A DNA stretch of 64,000 bases from Selaginella tamariscina (lineage: Eukaryota > Streptophyta > Lycopodiopsida > Selaginellales > Selaginellaceae). Position 1 is the first letter of the stretch. Each line of letters opens with the position of its first letter. The translations under genes and the position numbers were made by a program. The notes below the pieces were generated by a model that was not told the origin of the DNA, ran no database searches, and saw only the letters and a program-made list of their open reading frames with translations. This document shows positions 2,199 to 54,627 of the stretch, piece after piece. The stretch lies in assembly GCA_003024785.1 (NCBI GenBank), contig PUQB01000859.1, positions 21,319-85,318 on the forward strand, given 5' to 3'.

Positions 2199-2557
2199 TG
2201 TCAAGCCACGACCCAAGAGCAAGATAACAACAAGAAGGCTTGACTCAAGAACAAGGCAAGAGCAAGGAACAAAACAAGAATGATCATAGAATAACTGATG
2301 TTGTTGTACAACAATTAGGTCAGAGCTTTTATACTCACAACTCCAAGCTAATCTGGTCATGAGTCTAATATGGTCATGAGCTAAAATAGTGACCCTTATC
2401 CTTTAGGCATATCCTATAGTATATCCTATAGGCATATCCTGTAGGAATTCCTGTAGGCATATCCTGTAAATATCCTGCAGGCATATCCTGTAGGTATATC
2501 CTATAGGCATATCCTGTAACTCGTATCCTGTATCCTGTATATGTATCGGTCGTGACA
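2199..2557 (-). repeat. 3' LTR of chromovirus A
   Basis: Starts TGTCAAGCC and ends CGTGACA. The inner half (about 2405-2545) is a run of degenerate ATATCCTGTAGGC-type units. The adjacent inner sequence GCACCTCCTCCCTAA (2558-2572) is the polypurine tract read from the other strand. Confidence 0.93.
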
Positions 2558-2599
2558 GCACCTCCTCCCTAAGGACGAGTTCCACGAGTCTTGGGACCT

Positions 2600-6415: not shown

Positions 6416-6436
6416 CTACGTCCAACTTCGTGGCTC

Positions 6437-7412: not shown

Positions 7413-7512
7413 GATCTATGAAAGAAAAAAAAAAGGAGAAAAACGAAGGAGAAGAATCAAGGAAAAAAAAGTAGCTGAAAATCGAAAAGCTATGAAAGAG
7501 TTACTATCAAAC

Positions 7513-7861
7513 TGTCAAGCCACGACCAAGAGCAAGATAACAACAAGAAGGCTTGACTCAAGAACAAGGCAAGAGCAAGGAACAGAACAAGAACAAACAA
7601 GAATGATCGTAGAATGACTGGTGTTGATAGTAACTGATTGTACAACAATTAGGTCGGAGCTTTTATACTCACAACTCCAAGCTAATCTGGTCATGAGTCT
7701 AATATGGTCATGAGCTAAAAATAGTGACCCTTATCCTTTAGGCATATCCTGTAGTATATCCTATAGGCATATCCTGTAGGAATATCCTGTAGGATATCTA
7801 TATACCTGTAGGTATATCTATAGCATATCCTGTAAGACATATCCTGTATCGGGTCGTGACA
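7513..7861 (-). repeat. 5' LTR of chromovirus A
   Basis: Matches the 2199-2557 LTR. On the - strand it carries a TATA-like TATAAAAG (complement near 7660-7668), followed about 31 nt later by CAGTTACTATCAA (complement 7624-7636), the predicted start of the RNA. The PBS-like AGTTACTATCAA (7499-7510 on the + strand) lies 2 nt inside the LTR boundary. Confidence 0.93.
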
Positions 7862-20327: not shown

Positions 20328-20432
20328 TAGACCCTCATTTACAACAACATCAGTAAATTACTCAATCAAGTGTAGTAAAATCTTTTCAAGAGTTTGTTTA
20401 GTGTTTGCAAATTGTTTTTTGATATTTCTTAA

Positions 20433-21028
20433 ATGGCTCAGGCAAAGGAATTCTTTGTAGTTCTTGTTGTATGTATACTTTGGGTTCTTTGTTCGGCAGT
20501 AGAACACAATCTTGGCCCCTGGAACTTGCAGAGGACCCAAGCTGAGTACAAGGCTTGGTCTCAAAACGAAACTTTCATTGTCGGAGACACTCTAAGTGAG
20601 TATTTTGTGTGTGTGTGTGTTTGCATGTACTGAGGCACATAAATACAGTCATGCAAACTTGGTTTGTATCTTCACACACAAACAGTAGAATGCATGTAAT
20701 GTGTCGTGCATGCAGGTTCGAGTTTGAAGCAGGCCGACACAATGTGTTGGCACTTGCAAACCAGACGGCGTACGACAATTGCGATCTCAGCAGTCCGATC
20801 AAAACATTCAACGGACCAGATGCAGTCATTGAACTCCAGAAACCTGGGAAGCGTTTCTATGTTTGTGGTGTTGGTAAGCATTGCGCCAGTGGCATGAAAG
20901 TTGCAGTAAACGTTAATGGATCTGTTGGTGCATTGGCACCGGCTCCAGGCCCGCAAAGTGGAGCCTTTCAAGTTGTCACGCCCGCGGTATACATGGTGTT
21001 TGTCCTAGTGTTGTTTGTTCTCTTCTGA
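20433..21028 (+). CDS. Phytocyanin P1 (blue copper protein, GPI-type tail)
   Basis: Two exons. Exon 1 (from 20433) codes for a signal peptide (FFVVLVVCILWVLCSA) and the start of the cupredoxin domain (HNLGPWNLQ, FIVGDTL). Exon 2 (from 20716 to 21028) supplies the copper ligands: His in RHNVL, Cys in FYVCGV, His in KHCASG, Met in GMKVAV, with disulfide Cys in YDNCD and KHC. A PAP-type linker and a hydrophobic tail (VYMVFVLVLFVLF) predict a GPI anchor, so it sits at the plasma-membrane outer face. Family role: small electron-transfer or cell-wall proteins (uclacyanin-like). Oddity: one base is missing at the 3' splice junction compared with P2 and P3. The usual donor (after 20595) would break the frame, but a second GT donor 4 nt downstream (after 20599) restores it, giving 159 residues. 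Confidence 0.85.
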
Positions 21029-22031
21029 GAGGTTATATTTTCTGTTATTCTTTTCCATTCTTTGATTTCCTTTACTTGATAATTCAATTTTCCAATTTTC
21101 ATTTAAATGTCTAAGCCTCCTTTAATTTCTGAGAAACACATTAATAAGTTTTTCCACAACCATGCAGAAACACTTTCTTTAAGGCCGTCTGAAACATGGA
21201 TGACCTTGCAATCTGCTCAGAGAAAGATCAAAGCATTCTACATCTTTATTATGAAAACAGACTATATGATATATAGGTAATTTTATTTTTAATAAATTAT
21301 AAATCTTTCACTATTATTATTATTATTCTGAACGGCATCCTCACCTTATTGTTGCAATACCACCACAAGTTTGCTATAATTAAATGGAACACTTTCACAA
21401 TCTAACCTCCCTTCTGTATTAGTGATAACTAATTAAAATTTAATTAATTAATAAAGATAAAAATTAGGAAAAAGTATATTTTAAAAAAATTTATATATCC
21501 CAAATTATGTATACAAATTAAATGCATTAACCCTATATTTTATATTAAATTGTCAAAATAATTAGTTTAATTAACCTTAACTAAGGAAGTTGTAAAAACT
21601 AACTGATTAAAGTTCAAAATATTTACTAAAAAATTTAGTTTAAAACTTATATTGGAAATGTGTTTTTGTAGGCCATACTATAATTTGTAATTTATCACTT
21701 GCAAGTGAGAACCTGTTCCGTAGAATATGCACCAGCAGATAATGCACGGGAAATTGTCAAATTGACAATTTTTTTAACATTTAACATTTAATAAACTTTA
21801 ATTATTTTATTTGTAATATATTATGAATTAAAAATATATTTTTAGTTAATATTATTTTTAAAAGTCATTATTATTACAATTGAAGTTTTTAAATGGTATA
21901 TATGAAAATTTAGAATTTTTAGAAGGGTATATATGTAAATATAAAACTTTAAGGGTATATATACAAATATGATAAATTTCAAGGGTATAAATATAATTTT
22001 CTCTATTTTGTTTACAATATTTGAATACTTG
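21029..22031. other. AT-rich downstream flank of P1 (shared with P2 flank)
   Basis: No gene. Related to 40320-41805: both share the CCTCCTTTAATTTCTGAG word and, just before the D element, several GGGTATATAT-type units. It is part of the duplicated segment. Confidence 0.6.
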
Positions 22032-25000
22032 TGTAAGGTATATACTACATATATATGCCATGCATACTCTGCCATGGAGGTGCCATGTGACACTAGGATT
22101 CAGGCACACTGATCTGGGCACTGGCTAATCTGAGCACTATGATTTACCTGGCACCAAGAGTGTTAATCCTGGCACAGACACTTAGTATAAATACCTTGTA
22201 TAAGTCAGACATAATCAAATCATATTTGGTATTCACATCTCTCTTATTAGTGGAGAAGTTGAGTAGTCCTTTGAAGACTTAGTTTTTTTTGTCTCCCTCT
22301 CCCCTTGTTGTTCTTGTTCGTGATGGAGAACGAAGAAAGGTGGTTGCAGTTGTTCGATGCACTGTAGTTGAGCGTGGCAAATCAAACTATTCTCATGCGG
22401 GAAATTCACCAAGGTATGCAGCAAAATGTCAGTATGCCACAGAGTGACAATCCATGTGTTTGTCCAGAGTTCTTCAAGTGGAGGTTGGAGCTGACGTGTA
22501 CCATTGGTGGGAACACTTTCAAGGGATTGATGACTACCATGGATGGCCTAAATCCCAGTGGTTGCGAGAGTTCCCAACGTGTCTACAAGGACTTGCTTTG
22601 CAATGGTACAATGGTGTCCCCGTTCTTAATTGAGAAAATTGGAACATCTTGTCCCAGTGATTCAAGCAAGCTTTTGGTAAGTCCGAGAATTCCGCTATAG
22701 CTTTTTATGAGCTTCACGACTTGAAGCAAGTGTTGGCAAAGACTGTTCAACAATTCGGGATCAAGTTTCGGAACTTGGTCAATCGTGCGGATCCAAGCAT
22801 GACAGAACGAGTATGGTTGGGTTGTTGTGGCCGGCTCTTCGCCCTGGTTTGACTGGCTTGGTGGAGGGATTTGGTCCTTCAACTGTGGAGGAGGCCTTGC
22901 AGATTGCACAGCGATTTGAGAACTCGTTAGGTGCAGCACAACATGTGTGGATATCCTGTACCAACACCTATTCCTAGAACTTCTTTGACATCCGATTCTA
23001 TTCTGATGGAAGTGGGTGCTGTTTAGATGGAGGACAAGTCCTAGGCCACAGAAGGGCCCAGGCCAAGTTGCTAGTCGGTGTGGTCGTGGTCGTGGGCGGA
23101 ACATGAGTGCCGAGGTTGGAGACATGTTGCATGAGCATGTGCAAATCAACATCAAGTAGCTGCCATTGAGACTGCAGAAGAAGTTGAGACGCTTCCTCAG
23201 CCGGAAAGCGGGGAGTAGTGCATGGGTGTCAGAGGACCCATGCACTAGGCACATTGCACCACCTCTGAAGAATTTGATTCTTACGCATGGTCAACACTTC
23301 CCTAAAGCACCTTTGTTCTTCCATGCTTGTGCAGGCATAGGGGTTTTGAGTGAGTTACCGGACACCAAGCATTTTATGTTTGTGTTCTCGGGCATGGTAG
23401 AAGAAACTCCTGTTTCAGTCCTAGTGGACTCCGGATCCGGTATACCTTCTATCAATTAAGCGGTAGCTGAGTCCTTGCACTTGCACATAGTACCAGTTGA
23501 GTGAACTTTGAAGGTAGTGTTCGTTGATAAGAAGTCCTTTGCTCGATTACATCGAATTGCACACGTGCTTGTGGTGTTAGGAGGATACCATCATATACTT
23601 CCATTACAGGTGATGCCGAGCCAAGTCCATGACATCATCATAAGTGTCAACTGGCTTCATGTGGTCAAGGCAAGATGTGATTTTGAGATGTGCATGTTGT
23701 GTATCCCAAGATGCCCCCATTGCAGGCTACATGACATGCACCGCATGGCATGGCGACAACTTTGCAGGGCATGGTGGCACCTAAGGAAGAGCCTTCTTTA
23801 GAGCAACGAGCTAAGGACATCAAGGACTTGTTGGCGAGGTATCCGAGCTTATTCAAACCCATTGTAGGAGCTGTGAATCCCCTGTTGACTACTCGGCATC
23901 ACATCCCAACTAGTAAAACTTGCCCGATTAGGATGGGCTTAGGCGACGTTCTCCAAAGGAGAAGGATATCCTAAATCGTTGTGTGAGGGAGATGCTAGAG
24001 TTAAAAGTGATACATAAGTCCCGAAGTCCATGAGTGGCAGGACCACACATAATTCCAAAGCCGGATAGGACTACACGTTCACTATCGACTTCAAGCCATT
24101 GAATGATGTTTCTGTTCTAGATTCATATCCACTACCAAGGGTGGATGATTTGGTGGATGCATTGGGGAATAGTCTATACTTTACTATCCTTGACATGACT
24201 TCCGGCTATTAAATCCCTATGGCTCCTGAAGATGCAGCAAAGACAGCATTTTGAACACCATCCGACTTGTACGAATTTACGATTATGCCATTTGGGTTGG
24301 TCGGGGCCCCAGCAACTTTCCAGCGGATGATTGACGAGTTATTGAAGGGCTTTAAAGAATTTGCACGTGCATATATTGATGACCTTATAATTCACTCTGT
24401 TACGTGGAGGAGCACCTTCAACAGTTAAAACGGGTCCTGCAGCAATTGGTGCAATACGGACTTACCTCCTTAAAGTACTTAGGATTCATCATCACGGTAG
24501 AGGGTGTGGAGCTGGAATCCCGAGAAGACCCTGGCTATACGAGAATTTCTTGCTCCTGAGTCAGTGACGGAGTTGTAGTGTTTCTTGAGGAAGACGACAT
24601 ACCTAGTGACATTTATTCCGCGGTTCTTAGATCTGACAGCCCCATTGCGAGGATTGTTAAAACAAAGAGCTCATTCCTATAGTCCAAGAAGTGTCAGAAG
24701 GCGTTTGAGGATGTTAAGGCACTACTGGGATCTCCACCTTTGTTGCGGTATCCGGACTTCACCAAATCCTTTATTCTTCGGACCGATGCTTCAGATGTTG
24801 AGTTGGGGCAGATTTGTTGCATGAGACTCCCGATGGTCAGCGGTACCCGATCGCTTATGCAAGTCGAAGCCTTAGTGATGTAAAGAAAAATTATTCCACC
24901 ACAGACAAGGAGTGTTTGGCAGTCGTATGGGCCTTTCAAAAGTTTCAAGCGTACTTACATGGCTTCGACACATTGTTGAAAATTGATCATACTGCAGTCA

Positions 25001-26001: not shown

Positions 26002-26382
26002 TGTCAAGCCACGACCTAAGAGCAAGATAACAACAAGAAGGCTTGACTCAAGAACAAGGCAAGAGCAAGGAACAAGACAAGAACAAGGAACAAGACAAGA
26101 ATGATCGTAGAATGACTGGTGTTGATAATAACTGATTGTACAACAATTAAGTCGGAGCTTTTATACTCACAACTCCAAGCTAATCTGGTCATGAGTTTAA
26201 TATGGTCATGAGCTAAAAATAGTGACCTTTATCCTTTAGGCATATCCTGTAGTATATCCTATAGGCATATCCTGTAGGTATATCCTATAGGCATATCCTG
26301 TAGGAATATTCTGTAAGTATATCCTATAGGCATATCCTGTAACTTGTATCCTGTATCCTGTATCCTGTATCGGGTCGTGACA
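26002..26382 (-). repeat. 3' LTR of chromovirus C
   Basis: TGTCAAGCC to GTGACA. Contains a run of ATATCCTGTAGG-type units (26235-26365). The polypurine tract (complement of GCACCTCTCCCTAA) adjoins at 26383. Confidence 0.93.
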
Positions 26383-26392
26383 GCACCTCTCC

Positions 26393-27955: not shown

Positions 27956-28005
27956 GATCGCCCGGGGTCAGTGCAAGGTAAGAGCGCCTAGACAATGCAT
28001 CCGCC

Positions 28006-28663
28006 TGTCACGACCCGATACAGAATACAGGATTCCGGATACAGGACATGGGTTGCAGGACTTTCCTACAGGATTCCGGATACAGGATATGGGTTGCAGG
28101 ATTTTCCTACAGGATACTCCTACCAGGATTCCGGACACAGGATTCGGTTGCAGGATATTCCTACAGGATATGCCACAGGATATGCCTAGAGGATAAGGGA
28201 CATGTGGACTCATCTTAGCCTCTGCATGCATGCAATCACTTTTGCATGCATGCAACCACTTTTGCATGCATGCCTAGATTAGCTCTTGGAGTTGTGAGCA
28301 TAAAAGCTCCGACCTAATTGTTGTACAATCAGTTACTATCAACACCAGTCTTACTACGATCAATCTTGTCTTGTCTTGTTTCCTGTCCTGTTCCTGTCTC
28401 GCTCCTATTTCCTGTCCTGTTCCTGATCCTGTCCTGCTGGATCCTGTCCTGCTCCGGGATCCTGTCCTGTTCCTGTTTTGCTCCCGGATCCTATCCTGTG
28501 CTTTCCTGTCTTGCTCCCGGATCCTATCCTAATCCTGTCCTACTCCTAGATCCGTCCTGTTCCTATTCCTGGTTCCTGTCCTGCTCTCGGTCCTGTTCCT
28601 GAGTCAAGCCTTCATGTCCTTGGAATCCTGCTCTCTTCCTGTTTCCTGGATCGTGGCTTGACA
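28006..28663 (+). repeat. 5' LTR of chromovirus B
   Basis: TGTCACGACC to GGCTTGACA, 658 bp. TATA-like ATAAAA lies at 28300-28305, and the predicted RNA start AGTTACTATCAA at 28331, 31 nt downstream. It is 14 bp longer than the 3' LTR because of an extra TCCTG unit. Confidence 0.95.
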
Positions 28664-28680
28664 GTTTGATAGTAACTGCT
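28664..28680 (+). other. Self-priming-type primer-binding region of chromovirus B
   Basis: Immediately after the 5' LTR the sequence is GTTTGATAGTAACTGCT. It has no TGG start as expected for a tRNA-primed element. TTGATAGTAACTG (28666-28678) is the exact complement of CAGTTACTATCAA (28330-28342) in the LTR, at the predicted 5' end of the RNA. Elements A and C keep the same feature (12 and 13 nt). Confidence 0.8.
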
Positions 28681-28756
28681 TCATAGTTCTCCGTTTTCCA
28701 GCTACCTTTTTCTTGATTCCTTTCCTTCATTTTCCTCCTTTTTTCTTTCCTAGATC

Positions 28757-29734
28757 ATGGCTGATTTTGAGCATTTTCAACACGAGCACCAAATGCTACT
28801 TCATGAGCTGGCCACTTTGCGCCAAGTGGTCACCGACCTGCAAGGTTCCACCACTGCGGCACATGCAGCTGCTGATGCATCCTCCAAGGCTGCTGCGCAG
28901 GCTCTCTCCCAGGCATCGGTGGTTTCCTCTTCATCAAACTTTTCTTCGGAGCCGAAGGTTAGCATGCCAGAGAAGTTCAGTGGTAATCGTGCCGATTTCC
29001 AAGGTTTCCTGAATCAGATCCGACTCTTGATCCGTATGCAACCACGGCGCTACTCGACTGATGCTCAAAAGGTGGGTCTTTTGGCATCCTTACTAAGTGG
29101 ATCTCCACGGGCTTGGGTTGCCCCCTTGCTGGAGCGTGACGATCCACTGATGGAAGACTTTGAAGGTTTCGTGGCTGCCTTTGAAGCCTGTTTTGGAGAT
29201 CCTGATAAGTACCGTTCTGCATGCACGAAGTTACGGAAGCTCACTCAAGGATCCCGACCAGCTTCCGTCTATGCATCCGAATTTCAGCAACTTTGCACGA
29301 ACATTCCATGGGACGAGACTGCATTGATCGAACACTTCCGTTTTGGGTTGAGGGACGACGTGAAGGACCTTCTCCTTACGTTACCGGATGCCCAAACATT
29401 AGCGGAGATCATGCAACAAGCTGTTCGTTGCGACAACCGTTTGTTCGAGCGTCGTCAGGAAAGATCCCGTCAACAGTTCCTGCAAACCAATCCTACAGCT
29501 GTGGTACATGTTCCTGCACCACCTTCTGGAGTAGTTCCTATGGAGGTTGAGAAATCCAAGCGTGGCTCTCTTTCCGCTGCCGAGAAGCAACGTCGTCGCA
29601 GTGAGAACCTGTGCTTGTATTGTGGTGGAGCAGGACACAAGGTGGCAGATTGTCCTATTAAAGCCAGGAACTTCAAGACGCGTGAAGTCGAAGCCGAAGT
29701 TCAGTCGGAAAACTCCAATGTCCACTTCGTCTAG
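28757..29734 (+). CDS. Chromovirus B gag (capsid and zinc knuckle)
   Basis: An uninterrupted 325-residue frame with ATG at 28757, the first ATG after the PBS. Residues 1-60 are helical and alanine-rich. Residues about 70-230 form the retrotransposon capsid region (MPEKFSGNRADFQGFL, PRAWVAPLLERDD, FVAAFEACFGDPDKY, LRKLTQGSRPASVY, FRFGLRDDVKDLL). A basic segment follows, with a single CCHC zinc knuckle CLYCGGAGHKVADC near residue 295 that binds RNA. The stop TAG is at 29732-29734. The pol frame is -1 relative to gag and overlaps it by about 73 nt, so pol is probably made by frameshifting. It assembles the particle in which reverse transcription takes place. Confidence 0.93.
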   Translation: MADFEHFQHEHQMLLHELATLRQVVTDLQGSTTAAHAAADASSKAAAQALSQASVVSSSSNFSSEPKVSMPEKFSGNRADFQGFLNQIRLLIRMQPRRYSTDAQKVGLLASLLSGSPRAWVAPLLERDDPLMEDFEGFVAAFEACFGDPDKYRSACTKLRKLTQGSRPASVYASEFQQLCTNIPWDETALIEHFRFGLRDDVKDLLLTLPDAQTLAEIMQQAVRCDNRLFERRQERSRQQFLQTNPTAVVHVPAPPSGVVPMEVEKSKRGSLSAAEKQRRRSENLCLYCGGAGHKVADCPIKARNFKTREVEAEVQSENSNVHFV

Positions 29735-32700
29735 GAGCCGCGAAGTTGGACGTAGGTGCAGGCTCCATTGGTGCTGCTCATACCATCCCGTCACTTAAGT
29801 TTCCTGTACACATTCATCTTAATAATCGAGAGCTCATGGAGTTTGCCTTGTTAGACACTGGTGCAAATGCATGCTTCATGGATGACACGTTTGCAACTCA
29901 ACATGGCATTTCGGTGGTGAAGTTGAAGCGTGCAGTTCCTGTAGAGGTGGCCGATGGGCGTCTAATTGCTTCCGGTGCAGTTACCCATGCTACCGAACCT
30001 CTCTCCTGCAGGTATGGCACATTCAACTGTTCAATTTCCTTCAACTTGATCAAGACTCGGTCGACTCCCATCATTTTGGGCATGCCATGGTTCGTTGTTG
30101 CAAATCCGCAGATCGACTGGAGGTCTAGGACACTCACGTTTTCCTCTCCAACTTCTAGGATCAATCCTGTACCTTCCTGCGTGCAGGATACATCCTTAGT
30201 ATCTGAGGCAGTACAAGCTACAGGATTGACCGTACCTGTTCCTGTACCAGTGTTGAAGACTCCTCCTCGACAGGATTCACCTCATGGCAGTTCCTCAGCA
30301 CATCCGCAGGCTCTCCCCATTCCTGTAAGTTTGCGGTGTCCTGTACAGGGTTCTTCCAATCCTGTATCAGTGTCGAAGGTTCCTCCTCAACAGGATCCAC
30401 CTCCTGTTGATTCGTCAGCACATTCGCAGGCTTCTTCCACTCTTGCGCAACCACGGACTCCTGTACAGGATTCTTCCAATCCTGTACACTCACGGTGTCC
30501 TGTACAGGATTCTTCCAATCCTGTACACTCATCAACAACCACACAGGTTTTTTCCAATCCTGCTTCTTTCTGTTACCCTGCCTCTGTTCCATCCCCCAAG
30601 ATCCTTCCTCTTTTTCAGTCACAGCTCCCTCCTTCTCCTCTCCGAGTTCTTACCACTACCATGCATGAACTCGCCACTGATCCTGCCCCCTTCCACCTTT
30701 TTGCTTTTCAAGTAACTCCTACGTCCTCTCCTACCTTTCCTGTATCCGACTCCCCTGTTTTTTCTCCTTCTCCTTCTCCTTCTCCTCCTTCTTCCCTACC
30801 ATCCAAGTACCACGACTTTAAGGACGTTTTTGACAAGCACAAGGCTGCAGTTCTTCCTGTTCACAGGTCCTACGACTGTCCTATTGATCTTGCGGAAGGA
30901 AAGACTCCACCATTCGGACCGATCTATGCATTGTCACCCACAGAGTTGGAGGTTCTTCGTCAATACATCGAGGACAACTTAGGATCCGGCTTCATTCGTC
31001 ACTCAAAGTCCCCTGCAGGAGCTCCTATCTTCTTTGTCAAGAAGAAGGATGGGAGTTTACGTTTGGTGGTGGACTACAGGGGTTTGAATCAAGTCACCAT
31101 TCGGAATCGGTATCCGTTGCCATTGATCCCGGAACTTCTCGATCGGCTGCGAGGGGCAAAGGTGTTCACGAAGATCGACTTACGAGGAGCCTACAACCTT
31201 GTACGGATTCGTCCCGGCGATGAGTGGAAGACTGCCTTTCGTACAAGGTATGGACATTTTGAGTACACGGTAATGCCTTTCGGCCTTACCAATGCCCCAG
31301 CTGTATTCCAACACATGGTGAACGACATTTTCCGTGACTTCTTGGACCAGTTTGTGGTGATCTACCTCGACGACATCTTGATTTTCTCCAAGGACCAGGC
31401 GGCACATGACAAGCATGTACGACTAGTTTTAGAGCGGCTTCGCGAGCATGGCCTGTACGCGAAGTTGGAGAAGTGTTTTTTCGATAGGGATTCGGTGGAG
31501 TTCTTGGGCTACATCGTCTCTCCTGCTGGCGTTTCCATGGACATGCACAAGGTGAAGACCATCGTGGAGTGGGAGAGGCCCAAGTCGGTACGAGATGTAC
31601 AATGTTTCCTTGGCTTTGCAAACTTCTACAGGCGGTTCATACAGGACTTCTCCAAGCGTGTACTTCCACTCACAGAACTCACCAAGCGCACAGGACTTTT
31701 CTCTTGGTCCGACAAGGCGGAACACGCGTTCACAACACTCAAGGACGTTTTCACGACAGCTCCGATTTTAGCACATCCTGACCCTTCTCATCCTTTCTTC
31801 ATTGAAGCAGATGCCTCGGATTTTGCAGTAGGATCCGTCCTATCGCAAGTTGGAGAGGACAAGTTGCTTCATCCTGTAGCCTTTCACTCTCGTAAGTTCC
31901 TGTCGGCGGAGATCAACTACGAGATTCATGACAAGGAACTCAAGGCCATTGTGGATTCGTTTGAGGAATGGCATTTCCTGGAAGGTGCTGCACATCCTGT
32001 ACAAGTTCTTACGGATCACAAGAACCTGGAGTACTTTCAAACGGCTCGGGTCCTCAGTCGGCGACAGGCAAATTCAACACTCCTACAGGACGTTCGTTCG
32101 CAGTTGCCTACAGACGACTTGGGAAAGAATGTGTTCTCACACATTCATCCTGACGTTGCAAGTTCCTCTTCCTCCAGTTCCCGTCCAGACTACAACCTAT
32201 TCACCATACAGGATGGACTCCTGTACCGGGAAGGTCTCCTGTACGTTCCTGTTGGTATTTCTAGGACTCGTGTGGTACAGGATTGTCATGATACCCCGGC
32301 TACAGGACATTTGGTGTGGCCAAGACAGTGGAATTGGTGACTCGCAACTATTGGTGGCCTGGGTTGCGAGGTTTTGTGGAGAGGTTTGTACGGAGTTGTG
32401 ACACTTGTAGCAGGTCGAAGATGCCTCATCATGCACCCTCTGGTCTTCTTCGTCCTCTTCCTGTTCCGTCTGCTCCTTGGAGATCCATTTCTATGGATTT
32501 CCTCACAGATCTTCCTCCTTCCCGTGGATTTGATGCAGTTCTTGTGGTGGTTGACCGTTTCACCAAGCAGGCTCATTTCCTACCCTGCAACAAGACAGCT
32601 ACAGGTCAGACAACTGCCGAGTTGGTGATCCGCGAGGTGTTCCGACATCATGGTCTTCCTGAGAGCATTGTTTCCGATCGAGGTCCACAATTCATGTCCA

Positions 32701-33565
32701 AGTTTTGGCGAGAGCTTCTTAGGAGTCTACAGGTCAAAGTGGATCTTTCTTCAGGATATCACCCACAAACCGATGGGCAGTCCGAACGCACAATTCAGAC
32801 CTTAGAACAGTATCTTCGTTGCTTCATCAGTTACCAGCAGGACAACTGGTTGGACCTCCTTCCAATGGCAGAGTTTGCCTACAACAACTCCATCCATGCA
32901 TCTACAGGACAGACACCTTTCTTTGCTCTTACAGGCCACCATCCACGTTTTGACTTTGCTCCTACCGCTTCTCCTTCTTCCGCTCCTGCAGTACAGGATC
33001 GTCTTCAGCATCTTCGGCAGGTACAGGATGATCTCCAGGTTCATCTTCAACAGGCACAGGAACGATACAAGCATCATGCTGATGCTCACCGACAACCGGC
33101 ACCTGCATACAAGATTGGTGATCTCGTGTGGCTTCTTCGTCGACACATTTGCACCAACATGCCTTCTTCTAAGTTGGATTTTCAACGATTGGGCCCTTAG
33201 AGGATCGTGGCGGAGGTAAATCCTGTAGCTTTCCGACTCGAGTTACCATCCACGGTGAAACTTCATCCTGTGTTTCACACATCTTTGTTGGAGCCGTATC
33301 ATCCTTCTTCTCTTCCTGGTCGTGTTTCTTCTCCTCCCCTCCTGTGGTCATTAACACTGAACCTGAGTACGAAGTCGCAGCCATCCTTGACTCTCGTCTT
33401 CATCGTCACCAACTCCAATACTTGGTAGATTGGAAAGGGTACCTGCCTACTGATCGCACTTGGGAACCTGCATCCAACTTACTCCATGCTTCTTCCAAGG
33501 TTGCTGCCTTCCATCGGCATTATCCTGCTAAACCAGGTCCCAAGACTCGTGGAACTCGTCTTTAG
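29662..33565 (+). pseudogene. Chromovirus B pol (PR-RT-RH-INT-chromodomain)
   Basis: The frame is open from 29662, overlapping gag. Protease FALLDTGANACFMDD (near 29850); a P/S-rich spacer with many CCTGTA words (30150-30780); reverse transcriptase ([40 protein letters not shown]); RNase H ([12 protein letters not shown] to FEEWHFLEG), which joins directly to STLLQDV with about 70 residues missing compared with A; integrase with HHCC and the D, D, E of MDFL, VSDRGPQF and TDGQSERT; a GPY/F-like module; and the chromodomain (33355-33565, [27 protein letters not shown]). One lost T near 32312 shifts the frame before integrase, and a TAG replaces a Tyr codon at about 33198. These are the only breaks seen besides the in-frame deletion. 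Confidence 0.9.
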
Positions 33566-33576
33566 GGAGGAGGTGC

Positions 33577-34220
33577 TGTCACGACCCGATACAGAATACA
33601 GGATTCCAGATACAGGACATGGGTTGTAGGACTTTCCTACAGGATTCCGGATACAGGATATGGGTTGCAGGATTTTCCTACAGGATACTCCTACCAGGAT
33701 TCCGGACACAGGATTCGGTTGCAGGATATTCCTACAGGATATGCCACAGGATATGCCTAGAGGATAAGGGACATGTGGACTCATCTTAGCCTCTGCATGC
33801 ATGCAATCACTTTTGCATGCATGCAACCACTTTTGCATGCATGCCTAGATTAGCTCTTGGAGTTGTGAGCATAAAAGCTCCGACTTAATTGTTGTACAAT
33901 CAGTTACTATTAACACCAGTCTTACTACGATCAATCTTGTCTTGTCTTGTTTCCTGTCCTGTTCCTGTCTCGCTCCTATTTCCTGTCCTGTTCCTGGATC
34001 CTGTCCTGCTCCGGGATCCTGTCCTGTTCCTGTTTTGCTCCCGGATCCTATCATGTGCTTTCCTGTCTTGCTCCCGGATCCTATCCTAATCCTATCCTAC
34101 TCCTAGATCCGTCCTGTTCCTATTCCTGGTTCCTGTCCTGCTCTCGTTCCTGTTCTTGAGTCAAGCCTTCATGTCCTTGGAATCCTGCTCTCTTCCTGTT
34201 TCCTGGATCGTGGCTTGACA
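33577..34220 (+). repeat. 3' LTR of chromovirus B
   Basis: 644 bp, nearly identical to 28006-28663 apart from a few substitutions and a TCCTG-tract indel. Preceded by the polypurine tract TTAGGGAGGAGGTGC (33562-33576). Confidence 0.95.
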
Positions 34221-34225
34221 CCGCC

Positions 34226-37255: not shown

Positions 37256-37355
37256 GATCTATGAAAGAAAAAAAAAGACAAAAACAAAGGAGAAGAATCA
37301 AGGAAAAAAAAAGTAGCTAAAAATCGAAAAGCTATGAAAGCAGTTACTATCAAAT

Positions 37356-37776
37356 TGTCAAGTCACGACCTAAGAGCAAGATAACAACAAGAAGGCTTGA
37401 CTCAAGAACAAGACAAGAATGATCGTAGAATGACTGGTGTTAATAGTAACTGATTGTACAACAATTAGGTCGGAGCTTTTATACTCACAACTCCAAGCTA
37501 ATCTGATCATGAGTCTAATATGGTCATGAGCTAAAAATAGTGACCCTTATCCTTTAGGCATATCTGTAGTATATCCTATAGGCATATCCTATAGGAATAT
37601 CCTGTAGGTATATCCTATAGGAATATCTTGCAGGTATATCTTGTAGGTATATCCTGCATGCATATTCTGTAGGTATATCCTTAGGCATATCCTGTAGGAA
37701 TATTTTGTAGGTATATCCTATAGGCATATCCTGTAACTCGTATCCTGTATCATGTATCCTGTATCGGGTCGTGACA
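37356..37776 (-). repeat. 5' LTR of chromovirus C
   Basis: Matches 26002-26382, with additional TATCCTGTAGG-type units that make it 40 bp longer. PBS-like CAGTTACTATCAA (37341-37353) lies 2 nt inside the boundary. Confidence 0.93.
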
Positions 37777-38205
37777 GCAGCAGGGCTTCAGCTGCGATGG
37801 GTTGGACCTTGGAGTGTTAAAGAATAGTTGGGGACGCAAGTGTATCGCTTGAAGCGGCGTGATGTTGTTTGGGAGTCACAACATGTCGCTCATGTGTGTC
37901 GACTATTACCATTCCACCAGTAGACACTCATCTAGGGAGGAGGACAACCTTGATAGGCAGACATCACGTCCTGAGAGGGATGATGTAAAGTTCCATGGTA
38001 TATACTACATATATACACCATGCATACTTTGCCATGGAGGTGCCATGTGGCACTAGGATTCAGGCACACTAATCTGGGCACTAGCTAATCTAGATGCTGG
38101 CTAATCTAGGCACCATGATTTATCTGGCATCAAGAGCGCTAATCCTGGCACAGACACTTAGTATAAATACCTTATATGAGTCAGACATAATCAAATCATA
38201 TTTGG
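37777..38205 (+). mobile_element. Gypsy element D1, right part with 3' LTR
   Basis: Continuation of D1 beyond C, starting with the duplicated target GCAGC. The end of the integrase module (GLQLRWVGPWSVK-like, LKRRDVVWES) is followed by a purine tract (GAGAGGGATGA) and a 3' LTR beginning TGTAAAGTTCCATGG at 37984. The LTR carries the TATA-like AGTATAAATACC near 38160 and ends at about 38205. It aligns with the 22032 LTR. Confidence 0.85.
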
Positions 38206-39690
38206 TATTCACATTTCTTCTCACTTACTTATGTAATTAAGTAGGGCATGCATCATAATTCACAATGTGATCATTATCCATACTCTCATGTGGGTTTTGA
38301 CCTAATTTATTATTGTTACCCTTATGGCTGTCTCTTACCTACTTGGGGCATTTGGTTTGATAGTTGTCTTAGAAGACTTCACATTACTCATACATAGCAA
38401 TATGTTGGTTATTTGAGTTAAAACTTTAACAAAGTGAAACATGTTGGTTATTTGAGTTAAAATTTTAACAAAGTGAAACATGATATATACATAAGTGACT
38501 TTCACTAAATAAGATTTATGCCCTTGTCTATAAACTCAAAAACTATTACTTATATTGACAATTGTGAGGATTGTAAACTTATTATTGCCTTTTAATATAA
38601 GAGGCTTGTCCATAAGTGATGATCACTAATGTGTTACCTTCCTCTTCGCATCACTCTAACACACCTTATAATAGCAATCTCCATGATTCTAGACCCATTA
38701 CCTCCCCTTTTCAATTATAATAAAGGATACATCATGCTCATCCTTATAATAAAGTCTTGTTAAGTATCTTATATTGACAATCCTCACAATTCCAGACACA
38801 TTACTCCCACTTCTTTTACTAGAAGATTTACTCAACATCATGCTCATTAATAAAGTTTTGTCATATAAGGGTTAACCTGTTCACAAGTTGTGTGTTTAAG
38901 TTGAAACCATTCATTAAGAAGTTTATTTAAAATAATATGTTTTTCAAGCCCTATTAAAATATTTTAAATTTGTTTTAATTAGTATTTTTAAACAAAATTA
39001 AAAATGAAATAAAATCTAAGGACATAGGTTAATGGATCCCTTTCAAAGTGATTTTCCACTTCAGTGTGAAACAATTAAATTCCACTCAAACTTGTGACAT
39101 TATATATGTGTAAATATATATATATATATATATGGATTTGTTATTAACCTACTTAAAAATTGATACAACTCAAATAAGTACGATGTATATTTGCTGAAAA
39201 TTAATTGAAATTTGAACAGATCTAACATTCAAATTTCAGATAATTAATACTAAAGGAAATACAAGTGCAATTTAAAGTTACTCAACATAAGAAATGTATG
39301 TTAAGTAGATTGATTTATAATGAAGATATAATATATTTGAGAAACTTTTGAACTTTATTTATAGAATCTTTTTATACTTATAATAAATAATATATTAATT
39401 TTTACAAAAAATTAAGAAACTTTCTTTTACTTGCCTTATCGATCATTTCTCTCAAATATTATTAAACTTGTATTAGCATTAACAACCCTAACATTCATTT
39501 CATAGTTAGGAAAGGCATCAACATTAACGTACATGTTATGAACTACTAACTTGATCGAACGGCCAGGTGAGAAAAGACAAGTAAAATACAAACAATATAC
39601 TTATGTCAAGAACAGTGAATATGCAACACGATAGCGAACACACTTTGCGAGCTCCCCAGGGAGTGTCATTGTAAAAACGGCCAAAACTCC
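38206..39690. other. AT-rich spacer upstream of P2 (duplicated upstream of P3)
   Basis: No gene. Aligns nearly end to end with 46690-48175, including the GGCATGCATCATAATTCAC word and an (AT)n run at 39115-39133. It is part of the tandemly duplicated segment. Confidence 0.75.
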
Positions 39691-39692
39691 CA

Positions 39693-39700
39693 TATATAAG
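39693..39700 (+). promoter_or_regulatory. TATA box of phytocyanin P2
   Basis: TATATAAG at the same place relative to the start codon as in P1 and P3. Confidence 0.6.
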
Positions 39701-39789
39701 TAGACCTTCTAGGACTCCATTGACAAAAACATCAGTAAATAAGTAAAATCTTTTGAAGAGAGCTTCCAAATTTCTTTGATATTTCTTAA

Positions 39790-40329
39790 ATGGCTCAGGC
39801 AAAGGAATTCTTGTAGTTCTTGTTGTATGTATACTTTGGTTCTTTGTTCGGCAGTAGAACACAATCTTGGCCCCTGGAACTTGCAGAGGACCCAAGCTGA
39901 GTACAAGGCTTGGTCTCAAAACGAAACTTTCATTGTCGGAGACACTCTAAGTGAGTATTTTGTGTGTGTGTGTGTGTTTGCATGTACTGAGGCACATAAA
40001 TACAGTCATGCAAACTTGGTTTTGTATCTTCACACACACAAACAGTAGAATGTATGTAATGTGTCGTGCATGCAGAGTTCGAGTTTGAAGCAGGCCCACA
40101 CAATGTGTTGGCACTTGCAAACCAGACGGTGTATGACAATTGCGATCTCAGCAGTCCGATCAAAACATTCAACGGACCAGATGCAGTCATTGAATTCCAG
40201 AAACCTGGGAAACGTTTCTATGTTTGTGGTGTTGGTAACCATTGCGCCAGTGGCATGAAAGTTGCAGTAAACGTTAATGGATCTGTTGGTGCATTGGCAC
40301 CGGCTCCAGGCTTCTTTGATTTCCATTAA
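39790..40329 (+). pseudogene. Phytocyanin P2, frame-broken and tail-less
   Basis: A close relative of P1 and P3, with the same two-exon structure. Exon 1 has lost one T in GAATTCTTT (giving an immediate stop after six further codons) and one G in TTTGGG, so the signal peptide cannot be read through. Exon 2 (from about 40078) keeps all copper ligands (PHNVL, FYVCGVGNHCASGMK). It ends in GFFDFH because a deletion of roughly 110 bp removed the GPI-type tail and joined the linker to downstream sequence. Even if the single-base losses were assembly errors, the product would be a soluble form without anchor. Most likely a pseudogene. Confidence 0.85.
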
Positions 40330-41805
40330 TTCATAATTCAATTCTCCATTATTATGTGTATAGCCTCCTTTAATTTCTGAGAAACACATTAATAAACCTG
40401 TTCATGGATGTAGAAACACTTTATTAAGGCCGTCTGAAACACAGTGTACATGGCTGTGCTCAGAGAAATATCAAAGCATTCTATAATTGAATCTCGTTAT
40501 CTATCATCTTTATTATGAAAACACACTAATCTTTTGATCTGATATTTAAATAACTTTATTTTTAATAAATTATAAAATCTTTCACTATTATTAATATTAT
40601 TCTGAAACCTCACCTTATTAGTGTTTGGGGCGTTGCAATACCACTGTAGCACAAGCTTGCTATAGAACGCTTTGCCTGTATATATGTCAAGAGTTTATTT
40701 TATAGATTGTATTTAAGAAATAGAAAAATAAAATATTATAGTAATTATATTTTATGTTTAAAGTTTCATTCAACGTTTACATGTGTATTTATTTTAATTA
40801 TATATACAATTGTCTTTGCAGAGAGCAAACGCTCGAGCATCTAAATTTACGTGTGTTTATTATATAGATATATATAGTACTTTTAAATATAAAATGTGTG
40901 TAAAATGGAATTAAGTTATGTTTTGTTTAAAATTATGTGTCTTAAATATATTCTGCCTATAAATTATGTCAACAAAAATGGTATGAGATAAGAATGTACT
41001 AATAACAATTTAATTTTAAAGTATAATATTAATGAAGTTTCTAATAAGCTTGCTTAAATTGTAATTTTTATTTTCATGGGTTAATAATTTAAAAAAAAAA
41101 CATAAAGCATATTGCACATATGCTCTTCTGAAACTAAAACGTTTGGCCAACCGTCAACTCATATACGAACCTTAAACATGTAATAATAGAAGGGCAAGAA
41201 GACTTTGATCCCTTTTGTAATAAAGAACATACTTTATTTATTTTTCTTATATTATAACACGTGTGTGTTTCCTTTTTGGGAAAATTACATTTGTACCTCT
41301 GAAAATTATCATATTTATATATATACCTTTAAAAGTTTTATATTTACATATTCAAACTTCAATTTAAAGTTTTAAATTTTAAAATTAAAAATTAAAAAAT
41401 AATTTTTATAATCAATAAAAATTATAATTAATTTATATTTTATTATATTTAGGTTCAAAATACAACCTATTAAACATATATATCACAATATAATATAATT
41501 ATTTTTAAAAATATTCCATTTTTTACTATGATAATTTTTAACATTTAACATTCAATAAACTTTAATTATTTCATTTGCAATATATTGTAAATTAAACATA
41601 TATTTTTAGTTAATATTGTTATTTTAAAAGTCAAAATATTACAATTAAAATTTTTAAATGGTATATATGAAAATTTAAAATTTTTAAAGGGTATATATGT
41701 AAATATAAAACTTCTAGGGTATATATATAAATATGATAAATTTCAGAGGTATAAATATAATTTTCCCTATTTTTCTTTACAATATTTGAATAGGAAACAA
41801 CCTTG
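40330..41805. other. AT-rich downstream flank of P2
   Basis: No gene. Shares parts with 21029-22031, especially the GGGTATATAT-type units before the D element. It holds extra AT-rich sequence (about 40660-41230) not seen in the P1 flank. Confidence 0.6.
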
Positions 41806-42190
41806 TGTAAGGTTCTATGGTATATACTATGAATATACACTACACATATTCTACCATGGAGGTGCCCCATGCATTACTTGCATTACTATATCTATATGTT
41901 CTACATCCTAAACATACTATATGTAATCTACTTGTGTGTCTGTAAAATAAGATAGATGTTTATGTATATATTAGTTATTTCTTTGTATAACATGTTCTAA
42001 TATATCTATATCACCACGATATATACATTTTATGTGGCACTAGGATTTAGGCACACTAACCTAGGCATTGGCTAATCTAGGCGCTATGAGTTACTTGGCA
42101 CCAAGAGCGCTAATTCTAACATAGACACTTAGTATAAATACCTTGTATGAATCAGACCTAATCGAATCTATTTGGTATTCATGTCTCTTT
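41806..42190 (+). repeat. 5' LTR of D2 with internal insertion
   Basis: Matches the other D LTRs at both ends. Bases about 41866-42030 are extra AT-rich sequence absent from the three others. Confidence 0.7.
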
Positions 42191-45100
42191 TATTGATGGA
42201 GAAGTTGGGTAGTCCTTCAAAGGCTTAGATTTTTTTTTTTTGTTCTTTTTGTCTCCCTCTCCCTTGTTGTCTTGTTTGTGATGGTGAACAAAGAAAGGTG
42301 GTTGTAGTTGTTCGATGCATTATAATTGAGCGTGGCGAATCAGACTGCTCTCCTACGGAAAATTCACCAAGGTATACAACAGAATGTCAGTATGCCGTAG
42401 AGTGCCAATCCACGTGTCCATCCAGAGTTCTTTAAGGGGGAGGTTGGAGCTTACGTGTACTATTGGTAGGAACACTTTCAAGAAATTGATGACTACCATG
42501 GATGGTCTGAATCCCAGTGGTTGCTAGAGTTCCCAACGTGTCTGCAAGGACTTGCCTTGCAATGGTACAATGGTGTCCTCGTTCTTGATTGACAAGATTG
42601 GAACATCTTGTCCTAACGATTCAAGCAAAGCTTTTGGTAAGCCCAAGGATTCCGTTGCAGCTTTTCGTGAGCTTCACGACTTGAAGCAGTGTCGAGAGAG
42701 ACTATTCAACGATTTAGGATCAAGTTTCGGAACTTGGTCAATCGTGCGGATCCAAGCATGATAGAACAGATATGGTTGGGCTTGTTGTGGCTATCTCTTC
42801 CCCCTGATTTGGCTGGCTTGGTAAAGGGATTTGGTCCTTCGACTATGGAGGAGGCCTTGCGGATTATACAGCGATTTGAGAAACTCATTAGGTGTAGCAC
42901 AATGTGTATATCCTGTACCGACACCTATTCCTGGAACTTCTTCGGCATTCGATCTTGTTCCGATGGAAGTGGGTGCTGTTCAGATGGAGGACAAGTCCTC
43001 AAGCCGCAGGAGGGGCCCATGCCAAGTTGCTGGTTGGCGTGGTCGTGGTTCGTGGGCGGAACATTCAGTGCTACGAGTGCCGAGGTTGGGGACATGTTGC
43101 ACGAGCATGTGAAAATTGACATCAAGTAGCTACCATTGAGACTGTAGAAGAAGTTGAGACGCTTCCTTAACTGGAAATGGGAGTAGTGCATGGGGTGTCA
43201 TAGGACCCATGCACTAGGCACATTGCACCACCTCTGAAGAATTTAATTCCTGCGCAAGGTTGACACTTCCCCGAAGCACCTTTGTTCTTCCATGTTTATG
43301 CGGGCATAGGGGTCTTGAGTGAGTTACCAGACACCGAGCATTTTATGTTTGTGTTCTCGGGCATGGTAGAAGGAACTCATGTTTCAGTCCTAGTGGACTC
43401 CGCATCTGGTATATCTTCTATCAATCGAGCGGTAGCTGATTCCTTACACTTGCACACAGTACCAGCCAAGCGAACTTTGAAACTAGTGTTTGATGATAAG
43501 AAGTCCTTTACTCGATCACCGAATTGCTCACGTGCCTGTGGTGTTAGAAAGATACCATCATATACTTCCATTGCGGGTGATGCTGAGCCAAGTCCATGAC
43601 ATCATCATCCTGGGTGTTAATTGGCTTAGTGCAGTCAAGGCAAGATGTGATTTTGAGACGTGCATGTTGTCTATCCAAGGATACCCCCATTGTAGGATAC
43701 AAGACATGCACCGCATGGCATGGCAAAACATTGCAAGGCATGGCGACGACATTGCAAAGCATGGCAACAACATTGCAAGGCATGGTGGCACATAAGGAAA
43801 AGCCTTCTCCAGAGCAACGAGCTAAGGACATCAAGGGCTTGTTGGCGAGGTATCCAAGCCTATTCAAACCATTGTAGGAGTTGCGAATCCCCTGTTAACT
43901 ACTCGGCATCACATCCCACTAGTACAACTCGCCCAATTAGGATGGGGCTCATGCGATGTTCCAAAGGAGAAGAATATCCTGAATCATTGTGTGAGGAGAT
44001 CTAGAGTTGAAGGTGATACGTAAGTCCCAAGTCCATGGGCAGCAAAACCACACCTAGTTCCAAGCCGGATGGGACTACACGTTTCACTTTGATTCAGGCC
44101 ATTGAATGATGTTTCTGTTCCAGATTCATATCACTACCAAGGGTGGATGATTTGGTCGATGCATTGGGAATAGCCGGTACTTCACTATCCTTGACATGGC
44201 TTCCGCTATTGGCAGATCCCTATGGCTTTGAAGATGCAGCAAAGACAGCATTTCGAACACCATCGGCTTGTACGAATTTACGGTTATGCCATTTGGGTTG
44301 GTCGGGGCCCCAGCAACCTTCCAGCATGATGGACGAGCTTTGGAGGGCTTTAAAGAATTTGCATGTGCGTATATTGACGACCTTCTGATTCACTCTGTTA
44401 CGTGAGGAGCATTCAGCAGTTAGAGGGTCCTGCAGCGATTGGTGCAATACGGGCTGAAGTTGAAAGAGCAGAAGTGCAAGTTCGATGTACCTCCTTGAAA
44501 TACTTAGGATTCATCATCACGGCAGGGGTGTGAAACCGGATCCCGAGAAGACCCTGGCTATACGAGAATTTCCTGCTCCTGAGTCAGTGGAGTTGCAGCG
44601 TTTCTTGGGAAGGCAACATACCTAGCGAGGTTTGTTCCTGCGGTTCTCAGATTGACAGCCCATTGCGAGGATTGTTAAAAAAGGAGCTCAGTTCCTGGTC
44701 CAAGAAGTGTCAGAAGGCGTTCGAGGATGTTAAGGCATACTAGGATCTCCACCTTTGTTGCGGTATCCGGACTTCACCAAATCCTTTATTCTTCGGACCG
44801 ATGCTTCAGATGTCGGGTTGGGGGCAGATCTGTTGCAGGAGACTCCCATGGTCAGCGGTACCGATCGCTTATGCAAGTCGGAGCCTTAGTGATGAGAAAA
44901 ATTATTCCACCACGGACAAGGAATGTCTTGGCAGCCGTATGGGCCTTTCAAAAGTTCCATGCATACTACATGGCTCCAACACATTGTTGGAAACTGATCA
45001 TGCTGCAGTCAACTCAATCATGAAGAGGAGGAATGTGACGGGACGACTTGCACGTTGGGCTTAATTTTGCAAGGGTATCGTTTTCGGGTTGTTCATCGCC

Positions 45101-46481
45101 CAGGGTCTAGCATGGCGGATGGACGTGTTATCCCGAGCTCCTGTGGTAGTGGCAGCCCCTGTGGCATTGTTGCCGGATGCCCTTCCTGATCGCGTCTTCC
45201 GAGGCGGGAAGACATTGTGGAGGCTCAAAAGATGGAGCCATGGATCAGGAGGTTGCGTGAGGTCTTGAGTAGTGAGGTACCCTGTGAGGATCTTAACTTT
45301 CGCACATATGCACGATCTTTCAGACTGATGGATGACTTGCTTGTCTTTGTTGGAGACGGTTCCGAGTGTCGTGTGGTGGCACCACCAGTTTACATTAACT
45401 CCTGGTTGCAGTTCTTTCATGACAACCCATGTCCGGACACATGGGATTCCAACGATGCCTTGAGAGGATTTAGCAACTTGTATTGGCCCGATTGCGCAAG
45501 ACCTACATGAGTACATTCATACGTGTCCGGAGTGTCAACGGCATAACGTGTCCACACTTCCTCCTGCGCAACCCTGGAGCCAATTCGAGTTTCTCGCCCC
45601 TTTGAGCTGGTAGCGTATGACATCATGGGACCATTCCTGTGTTGCAGTTCGGTAATCGATACATCATTGTGTGCTTGATTACTTGACTCGGTGGGTAGAA
45701 GTGTGTGCTTTGCCAGATGCTACAACTTCCATCATCAAGTTCCTACTAGCTCAAGTGGTGCTGAGGCATGGTTGCCCCGAACGAATTTTATCGGATCAAG
45801 GACCAGGCCCAGCAGCGAAGCAGTAGCTTTGTTGATGCGACGGTTGCAATCCGACAATCTTTTGCCTCAGCTTATCATCCTGAGACTGATGGTTTGGTGG
45901 AGTGGTTTCAAAGTCATGCTTGCCAAGTATGTGCGCCTGACCATACGGATTGGGATATGTGGCTTCCATATCTCCAATTTGCTTATGTTTCAGCCCCTCA
46001 CAAGTCAACAGGGATTTCCCCATTCAAAGCTTTGTATGGTCGTGAACCTGTATTGCCCAGCGTTGGCATTACTCCGCACAAGCACGGTATATGGATGGGC
46101 GTATGTGGTTGGAGCATTTGAACCAAGTCCTTCCTCTGTTGTATGCTCAAGGTGGAGAACAGTTAGCCGTGCACAAGAGTATCAGCGTCGGAACTTACAA
46201 TCAACACATCAAACGCCACCTCAATACCAAGTGGGAGATTTGGTTTCGTCAAGTTTCCAGGTTAGGGGATCAAACACATGCAGCAGGGCTTCAACCGATG
46301 GGCGGGCCTTGAGTGTTGAAGAACAGTTGGGAACACAAGGTATATCGCTTGAAGCGGCGTGATGGGGTTCGGGAGTCACAATGTCGCTCATGTGTGTCGA
46401 CTATTACCATTCCACCAGCGACATCATCCAGGGAGGAGGATAACCTTGATAGGTAGACATCACGTCTTGAGAGGGGGATGA

Positions 46482-46686
46482 TGTAAGGTTCCATGGTATA
46501 TACTACGTATATATGCCACGCATACTCTGCCATGGAGGTGCCATGTGGCACTAGGATTCAGGCACACTAATCTGAGCACTAGCTAATCTAGGTGCCATGA
46601 TTTACCTGGCATCAAGAGCGTTAATCCTGGCACATACACTTAGTATAAATACCTTTCTAATCGAATCATATTTTGTATTCACACTC
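46482..46686 (+). repeat. 3' LTR of D2
   Basis: Starts TGTAAGGTTCCATGG after purine tract GAGAGGGGGATGA. TATA-like AGTATAAATACC near 46640. Confidence 0.8.
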
Positions 46687-46689
46687 ACT

Positions 46690-48074
46690 TGCTTAGTCCA
46701 CATTTGTAATTAAGTAGAGCATGCATCATAATTCACAATGTGATCATTATCCATACTCTTATGTGAGTTTTTGACCTAATTTACTATTGTTACTGTTATG
46801 GCTAAGATGTTGTCTCTTACCTACTTGGGGCATTTGAGTTAGATAGTTGTCTTAAAAGACTTCACATCACTCATACATAATAACAATGCCGTTCTTTGAG
46901 TTAAAACTTTAACAAAATGTGACATGATATATACATAAGTGACTTTCACTAAATAAGATTTATGTCCTTATCTATAAACTTAAAAACTATTACTTATATT
47001 GACAATTGTGAGGATTGTAAACTTATTATTGCCTTTTAATATAAGAGGCTTATCCATAAGTGATGATCACTAATGTGCTACCTTCCTCTTGGCATCACTC
47101 TAACACACCTTATAATAGCAATCTCCATGATTCTAGACCCATTACCTCCCCTTCTCAATTATAATAAAGGATACATCATGCTTATCCTTATAATAAAGTC
47201 TTGTTAAGTATCTTATATTGGCAATCCTCACAATTCCACTCCCACTTCTTTTACTAGAAGATTTACTCACACATCATGCTCATTAATAAAGTTTTGTCAT
47301 AAGGGTTAACCTGTTCATAAGTTGTGTGTTTAAGTTGAAACCATTCATTAAGAAATTTATTTAAAATAATATGTTTTTCAAGCCCTATTAAAATATTTTA
47401 ATTTAGTTTTAATTAGTATGTTTTAAACAAAATTAAAAATGAAATAAAATCTAAGGACATAGTTTAATGGATCCCTTTCAAAGTGATTTCCCACTTCAGT
47501 GTGAAACAATTAAATTCCACTCAAACTTGTGACATTATATATGTGTAAATATATATATATATATATATTTAGTTATTAACCTACTTAAAAATTGATACAA
47601 CTCAAATAAGTACGATGTATATTTGCTGAAAATTAATTGAAAATTTGAACAGATCTAACATTCAAATTTTAGATAATTAATTTAAAGTGAAATGTATGTT
47701 AAGTAGATTGATTTATATAATGAAGATATAATATAATTTGAGAAACTTTTGAACTTTATTTATAGAATCTTTTTATACTTTATAATAAATAATAATATTA
47801 ATTTTTACAATAAATTAAGAAACTTTCTTTTACTTGCCTTATCGATTATTTCTCTCAAATATTATTAAACTTGTTTAGCATTAACAACCCTAACATTCAT
47901 TTCATCTTTATACATCCATTAAATCTGAGTATATCGAGTTAGGAAAGGCATCAACATTAACGTACATGTTATGAACTACTAACTTGATCGAACGGCCAGG
48001 TGAGAAAAGACAAGTAAAATACAAACAATATACTTATGTCAAGAACAGTGAATATGCAACAGATAGCGACACAC
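46690..48074. other. AT-rich spacer upstream of P3
   Basis: No gene. Near-copy of 38206-39690, differing by small indels and substitutions. Confidence 0.75.
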
Positions 48075-48184
48075 TTTGCGAGCTCCCCAGGGAGTGTCAT
48101 TGTAAAAACGGCCAAAACTCCCATATATATTTGCGAGCTCCCCAGGGAGTGTCATTGTAAAAACGGCCAAAACTCCCATATATA
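48075..48184 (+). repeat. Tandem 55-bp duplication in the P3 core promoter
   Basis: Two direct copies (48075-48129 and 48130-48184) of the block that starts TTTGCGAGCTCCCC and ends at the TATA box. P1 and P2 have one copy. The second copy keeps TATATAAG (48179-48186); the first ends TATATATAT. Confidence 0.9.
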
Positions 48185-48275
48185 AGTAGACCTTCTAGGA
48201 CTCCATTGACAAAAACATCAGTAAATAAGTAAAATCTTTTGAAGAGAGCTTCCAAATTTCTTTTATATTTCTTAA

Positions 48276-54611: not shown

Positions 54612-54627
54612 TCTACCTCCGATACCA

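Follow-up and report, generated by a model that had tools for sequence, protein, structure and literature searches.

The self-primer of the retrotransposon Tf1 is 11 nt long. Self-priming is described for this fission yeast element and for the Tf1/sushi group (PMC10085805, PMC4600332), and the Tf1 leader is described as a 'pretzel' of three duplexes (PMC10085805). For plants, Neumann 2019 gives self-priming as a prediction for 12% of the LTR elements examined, among them most of the Tcn1 clade, which in plants is found only in mosses and club-mosses, and Houba and Osr-1, copia elements of the TAR lineage (PMC6317226). For SM-Tcn1 of Selaginella moellendorffii, Novikova 2010 found evidence for neither tRNA priming nor self-priming (PMC2864245). 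The window studied here, a 64-kb stretch of Selaginella tamariscina DNA, harbors three elements, A, B and C, which very probably prime reverse transcription with their own RNA through self-priming of the Tf1 type, as judged from their sequences and those of their relatives in the same genome.

A, B and C are chromodomain Ty3/gypsy elements (chromoviruses), whereas the TAR elements belong to another superfamily, Ty1/copia. Element B (Table 1) shows the domain order PR-RT-RH-INT, with Pfam matches to protease, RVT_1, RNase H, zinc-binding and rve domains distributed over two ORFs in different frames, and carries at the integrase C-terminus a chromodomain that also matches PDB chromodomains (best E 2.5e-09). 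The Y of EYEV and the W and Y of WKGY in this chromodomain align with the Y/F, W and Y of CDY-type chromodomains, positions that we take to be the aromatic cage of a group I chromodomain. The low divergence between its two LTRs indicates that element B is fairly young. It sits between two parts of element C, which lies on the minus strand (LTRs near 26002-26385 and 37356-37779), and the sister element A occupies about 2199-7860, also on the minus strand (repeat coordinates). The gag ORF of 326 aa, the 5-bp target duplication and the thymine-rich leader resemble those reported for SM-Tcn1, whose gag has 323 aa (PMC2864245). As the Tcn1 clade is described in PMC6317226 and PMC2864245, the likeness also extends to a chromodomain with aromatic residues, the lack of a tRNA PBS and predicted self-priming; this comparison is by described features, as our RT tree holds rows of this genome only. 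Two features of the Tcn1 clade, a self-complementary PBS without a tRNA site and a chromodomain of the group I kind, are present here. No RT relatives turned up in IMG/VR.

Table 1. Coordinates in the window of the features of element B and of the primer-related sites of elements A and C
Feature	Position	Strand	Basis or remark
Target site duplication CCGCC, left copy	28001..28005	+	sequence read
5' LTR, B (TGTCA...TGACA)	28006..28663	+	8 mismatches and one gap relative to 33577-34220
TATA-like box, B, CATAAAA	28299..28305	+	sequence read; TATAAAA in A and C
Predicted self-primer, B, putative first 12 nt of RNA (AGTTACTATCAA)	28331..28342	+	complementarity and position; presumed RNA start
R arm of second duplex, B (CTACGATC)	28354..28361	+	pairing vs shuffles; in B, nested folding favors pairing elsewhere
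U5 arm of second duplex, B (GATCGTGG), adjoins PBS	28649..28656	+	pairing vs shuffles
Spacer GT, 2 nt, LTR end to PBS	28664..28665	+	AT or TT in some copies
Primer binding site (PBS), B, TTGATAGTAACT	28666..28677	+	exact complement of AGTTACTATCAA
gag ORF, stop to stop	28754..29734	+	Pfam Retrotrans_gag, Ty3_capsid
pol ORF: protease, RT, RNase H	29686..32340	+	ORF and Pfam
pol ORF, other frame: integrase zinc binding and core	32292..33200	+	ORF and Pfam
Chromodomain piece, B	33353..33562	+	Pfam Chromo PF00385, E 4.5e-15
Polypurine tract AGGGAGGAGG plus TGC, before 3' LTR of B	33564..33576	+	sequence read
3' LTR, B	33577..34220	+	LTR alignment
Primer site, B 3' LTR	33902..33913	+	one C-to-T
Target site duplication CCGCC, right copy	34221..34225	+	sequence read; 5-bp duplication
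Predicted self-primer, A	7624..7635	-	pairs with own PBS
PBS, A	7499..7510	-	12/12 match to self-primer
Predicted self-primer, C	37440..37451	-	one C-to-T, G-U pair with PBS
PBS, C	37342..37353	-	11/12 plus one G-U pair
Primer site, C 3' LTR	26122..26133	-	one C-to-T

Arrays of a 13-bp unit occupy U3, and C/T-rich repeats the U5 of B (window 26208-26365, 37538-37772 and 28380-28600); the differences in LTR length may lie largely within these arrays. Further repeats, whose copies reach 97% identity, are located at 20415-23523, 38000-43492 and 46495-48725, and the ORFs at 22586-23290 and 45679-46359, in or near them, matched no Pfam family.

The initial annotation had reported that TTGATAGTAACTG (28666-28678) of element B is the exact complement of CAGTTACTATCAA (28330-28342) inside its LTR, and this holds over all 13 nt, with 12 nt being general. 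The first base of the predicted primer is the A of a CA initiator, which lies 31-32 nt below the TATA-like box (ATAAAA at 28300). By simple arithmetic, an exact 12-nt complement of a 20-mer is expected about 3.5e-4 times within a 658-nt LTR; a null of sampled random 20-mers was discarded, as it was contaminated by other family copies giving long matches. Similar pairs had been claimed for the two other elements: that of A stood over 12 nt but its 13th base is mismatched, while that of C is present without being fully exact (Table 1). The 3' LTR of A (window 2199-2562) has lost its primer site through rearrangement. In agreement with the annotated lack of a tRNA site beside the LTR, no TGG was found there in A, B and C, nor in the copies read of their family (family 1) and of a second family (family 2), and ARAGORN called no tRNA within the 64-kb window or in six family-2 loci.

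All genome-wide pattern counts refer to the host assembly of 300,702,823 bases in 1391 contigs. The pattern TATAAAN{26,42}CAACACCAGTC had 1033 matches (526+507), against 0 for its reversed control, and inspection by eye, with no script, found one of two primers, with scattered changes, in the 100 matches listed. The family-1 flank pattern CTTGACAN{14,17}TTTCATAG had 1049 matches (reversed control, 1). A sample of 38 family-1 loci (L001-L038) showed an exact 12-nt match in 35, one mismatch in one and primer-site deletions in two, although this sample leans to close copies because the loci were picked as the best matches to the elements of the window, with B and A themselves included as L001 and L009. 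Once the two loci with deletions (L018 and L027) were set aside, the remaining 36 LTR-PBS pairs had a single mismatch in the 432 cells of positions 1-12, whereas mismatches were found at position -1 in 24/36, at position -2 in 36/36 and at each of positions +13 to +15 in 36/36. This profile indicates that the complementary pair is 12 nt long with sharp edges; position -3 matches in 36/36 pairs, which we take as chance in near-identical copies. The LTR-PBS pair of C25 has one mismatch.

The second family (C818 and C1126), which falls into the same RT clade, carries a different primer, AGAATCATTCAA, in LTRs whose sequence differs from that of family 1, located 3' of a TATATAAA box, and its PBS, TTGAATGATTCT, lies 2 nt past the LTR and matches over 12/12 nt in both elements. 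The primers of the two families differ at 5 of 12 positions, all five being matched in the PBS, while CACCAGTC directly follows the primer in both. The family-2 flank pattern GTGACAN{14,17}GTAGTGAC had 273 genome matches and its reversed control 16, so that some of the matches are due to chance; a few of the 100 listed lack the 12-mer (C2:1102761, C511:358251, C91:20570). Two further observations concern this family. Near the 3' LTR of L082 and L092, numerous incomplete and scrambled copies of the stretch at the chromodomain end (TWEPAAHLVHAPDLV...) follow or interrupt it, forming a repeat array before the LTR. Moreover, the family-2 U3 (L081 near 1390-1460, also L093 and L095) has a minus-strand stretch with CCAGTTGGTTAA and GGTTCAAGTCC, which resemble the A and B boxes of tRNA; ARAGORN called no tRNA in this stretch.

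A smaller change is observed within family 1. In a subfamily, position 7 of the primer is changed from T to A, and AGTTACAATCAA in the LTR accompanies TTGATTGTAACT in the PBS in five of the six copies fetched, the sixth (L114) having no primer site in the stretch examined. These six were the copies with the changed PBS among 100 listed matches of the family-1 flank pattern, and a changed LTR lay upstream in 5/6 of them versus 2/94 of the other PBSs (Fisher p 1.6e-6, which overstates the case as related copies are treated as independent). Across the genome, the changed PBS was found 67 times (reversed control, 1) and the changed LTR, in a fixed 22-nt context, 172 times (reversed control, 0). 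When the 44 changed PBSs up to contig C760 were scored against 100 of the 172 changed LTRs, those listed, 33/44 had an exact changed LTR 60-700 nt upstream and 11/44 did not, two of the latter having one at 3' LTR distance (by eye). Co-variation is counted here in copies rather than in events, and the position-7 change may represent one event. Another 14 loci (L117-L130) carry a PBS altered by transitions. Of these, L128 is damaged and L118, L121, L123 and L127 yielded no LTR site; the LTR site was readable in nine, and 0/9 were fully compensated; L124 and L125 have G-to-A at position 2 on both the LTR and PBS sides, yet differ at another position. Such uncompensated variants fit decay after insertion.

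The same genome also harbors elements of the tRNA type. A PBS of the initiator-tRNA type (TGGTATCGGAG) was found in C302, C69, C46 and C670, the four non-self elements with a resolved LTR edge, which represent three RT groups. The initial annotation's initiator-tRNA site in a copia element of the window was likewise recovered, as TGGTATCGGAG at 54617-54627 (minus strand), directly after the apparent LTR end. The RT tree, built from 13 rows, contains a 100/99 split. On one side lie the eight rows of the self type, including C639, which was placed there without a PBS reading; the other side holds C302, C69, and C670 together with C615 and C224, whose PBSs were not read. No LTR pair was found for C615, C25 and C639 in the stretches examined; C894 has a repeat with unclear LTR edges, and the 5' LTR of C700 extends beyond the stretch examined. 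The C69-type flank pattern had 374 genome matches (reversed control, 0), with TTGGTATC or a one-base variant, by eye, in nearly all of the 100 listed. Here, 2 or 3 nt separate the LTR from the PBS and a few bases after the PBS vary, as they do in the self-primed families; variability at these bases was therefore dismissed as a mark left specifically by self-priming.

Leaders were folded from the predicted RNA start for 35 copies, nine of them chosen and 26 taken from L009-L038 for keeping the exact motifs; all but C were picked for an intact primer motif, and L009 is A again. In these 35 leaders, the predicted primer:PBS helix has a mean pair probability of 0.94-0.98. Whole-leader folding gave z values of -3.35 for A, -1.26 for B and -7.93 for C1126, the leader of B alone being no more stable than shuffles (12/100 as good). 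A second duplex is predicted between R just below the primer and the end of U5 just before the PBS, and its sequences differ between the two families (CUACGAUC:GAUCGUGG and GGCCUUGUG:CACAAGGUC). Shuffles paired as well in 1/200 cases for A, 5/200 for B, 0/200 for C818 and 4/200 for C504, while nested folding favors pairing of these arms elsewhere in B, in C504 and in two of the three position-7 leaders. For a third duplex, between the 3' side of the PBS and the LTR, shuffles were as good in 11/200 (A), 40/200 (B), 199/200 (C818) and 94/200 (C504). Thus, in the four leaders tried, folding predictions supported the primer:PBS and U5-R duplexes, and the third duplex of the Tf1 pretzel was not clearly supported. 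These leaders would resemble that of Tf1 in the complementarity of the putative RNA 5' end to the PBS and differ from it in a primer of 12 nt and in support for two of the three pretzel duplexes, as these are described in PMC10085805.

From the complementarity and its edges, the co-variation, the absence of a tRNA site and the predicted fold, we infer a course for the RNA start, cleavage, priming and PBS rewriting. Transcription would start at the A of the CA initiator (28331 in B), and the first 12 nt of the RNA would fold back onto the PBS 2 nt past the LTR. The element's RNase H would cleave behind nt 12 and so release a 3' end, from which minus-strand DNA would be extended across the 2-nt spacer and into U5; the integrase could later trim the spacer to CA. 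As plus-strand DNA would copy the primer, the PBS could be reset from the LTR sequence in each cycle. Such rewriting would explain why LTR and PBS match over exactly 12 nt, and it predicts both a matched stretch of exactly primer length and intermediates with a changed LTR and an old PBS. Whether the genome has recorded this process is an evenly balanced question in our judgment: the self-primer may have changed at least twice, once between families at five positions and once in a subfamily at position 7, with the PBS following, the primer being exactly 12 nt long and the leader having two duplexes instead of the three of Tf1, and the copies with a changed LTR and an old PBS (2/94) may be the intermediates.

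Three other explanations of the complementary pair were weighed. Retroelement particles usually hold two RNAs, and the 5' end of one could pair in trans with the PBS of the other, a form of self-priming for which the same complementarity would be expected as in cis; the second duplex, which joins R to the U5 end, favors folding within one RNA, and we regard this variant as unlikely. The pair might instead serve the leader as a stem for structure or packaging rather than as a primer, in keeping with the stable stem predicted and the second duplex adjoining it. Its position right after the LTR where there is no other PBS, its sharp edges at the putative RNA 5' end and the variable base at the PBS edge, as in the tRNA-type family, all fit a primer site and make a mere stem quite improbable.

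It is also conceivable that a tRNA or half-tRNA primes here and that the match to the LTR is incidental, or that a tRNA fragment was copied into the LTR, as such primers are common in plant LTR elements (PMC6317226). This explanation appears scarcely credible, as no TGG adjoins the LTR in A, B, C or the family copies read, one tRNA could not keep matching the 12-mers as they changed in family 2 and in the position-7 subfamily, and the LTR copy is located at the expected RNA start. The initial annotation had suggested checking whether changes in LTR and PBS co-vary and whether a plant tRNA fits beside the LTR. They do change together, both between the families and in the position-7 subfamily, and the TGG-type site missing beside the LTR of the self-type elements is present in three other gypsy groups of the same genome. 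Both outcomes support self-priming by the element's own RNA.

Self-priming in a plant is not in itself novel, since earlier predictions cover both the moss and club-moss chromoviruses of the Tcn1 clade and the copia elements of the TAR lineage (PMC6317226). What is new here is the compensatory evidence within one genome, the 12-nt primer and the support for only two pretzel duplexes. Co-variation of self-primer and PBS within a genome was announced in none of the titles and abstract openings surveyed, mostly of non-subscription literature. For SM-Tcn1, evidence was found for neither priming route (PMC2864245), whereas the pair found here is exact and co-varying. In the literature examined, self-priming in plants has so far been a sequence prediction, and the matched changes turn it into a testable evolutionary record, in which the RNA start and the cleavage site are predicted with single-base precision. 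Taken together, these elements provide a plant case of probable self-priming beside tRNA-type relatives in the same genome, and they bear on the Selaginella Tcn1 element that the 2010 study left without a priming route (PMC2864245).
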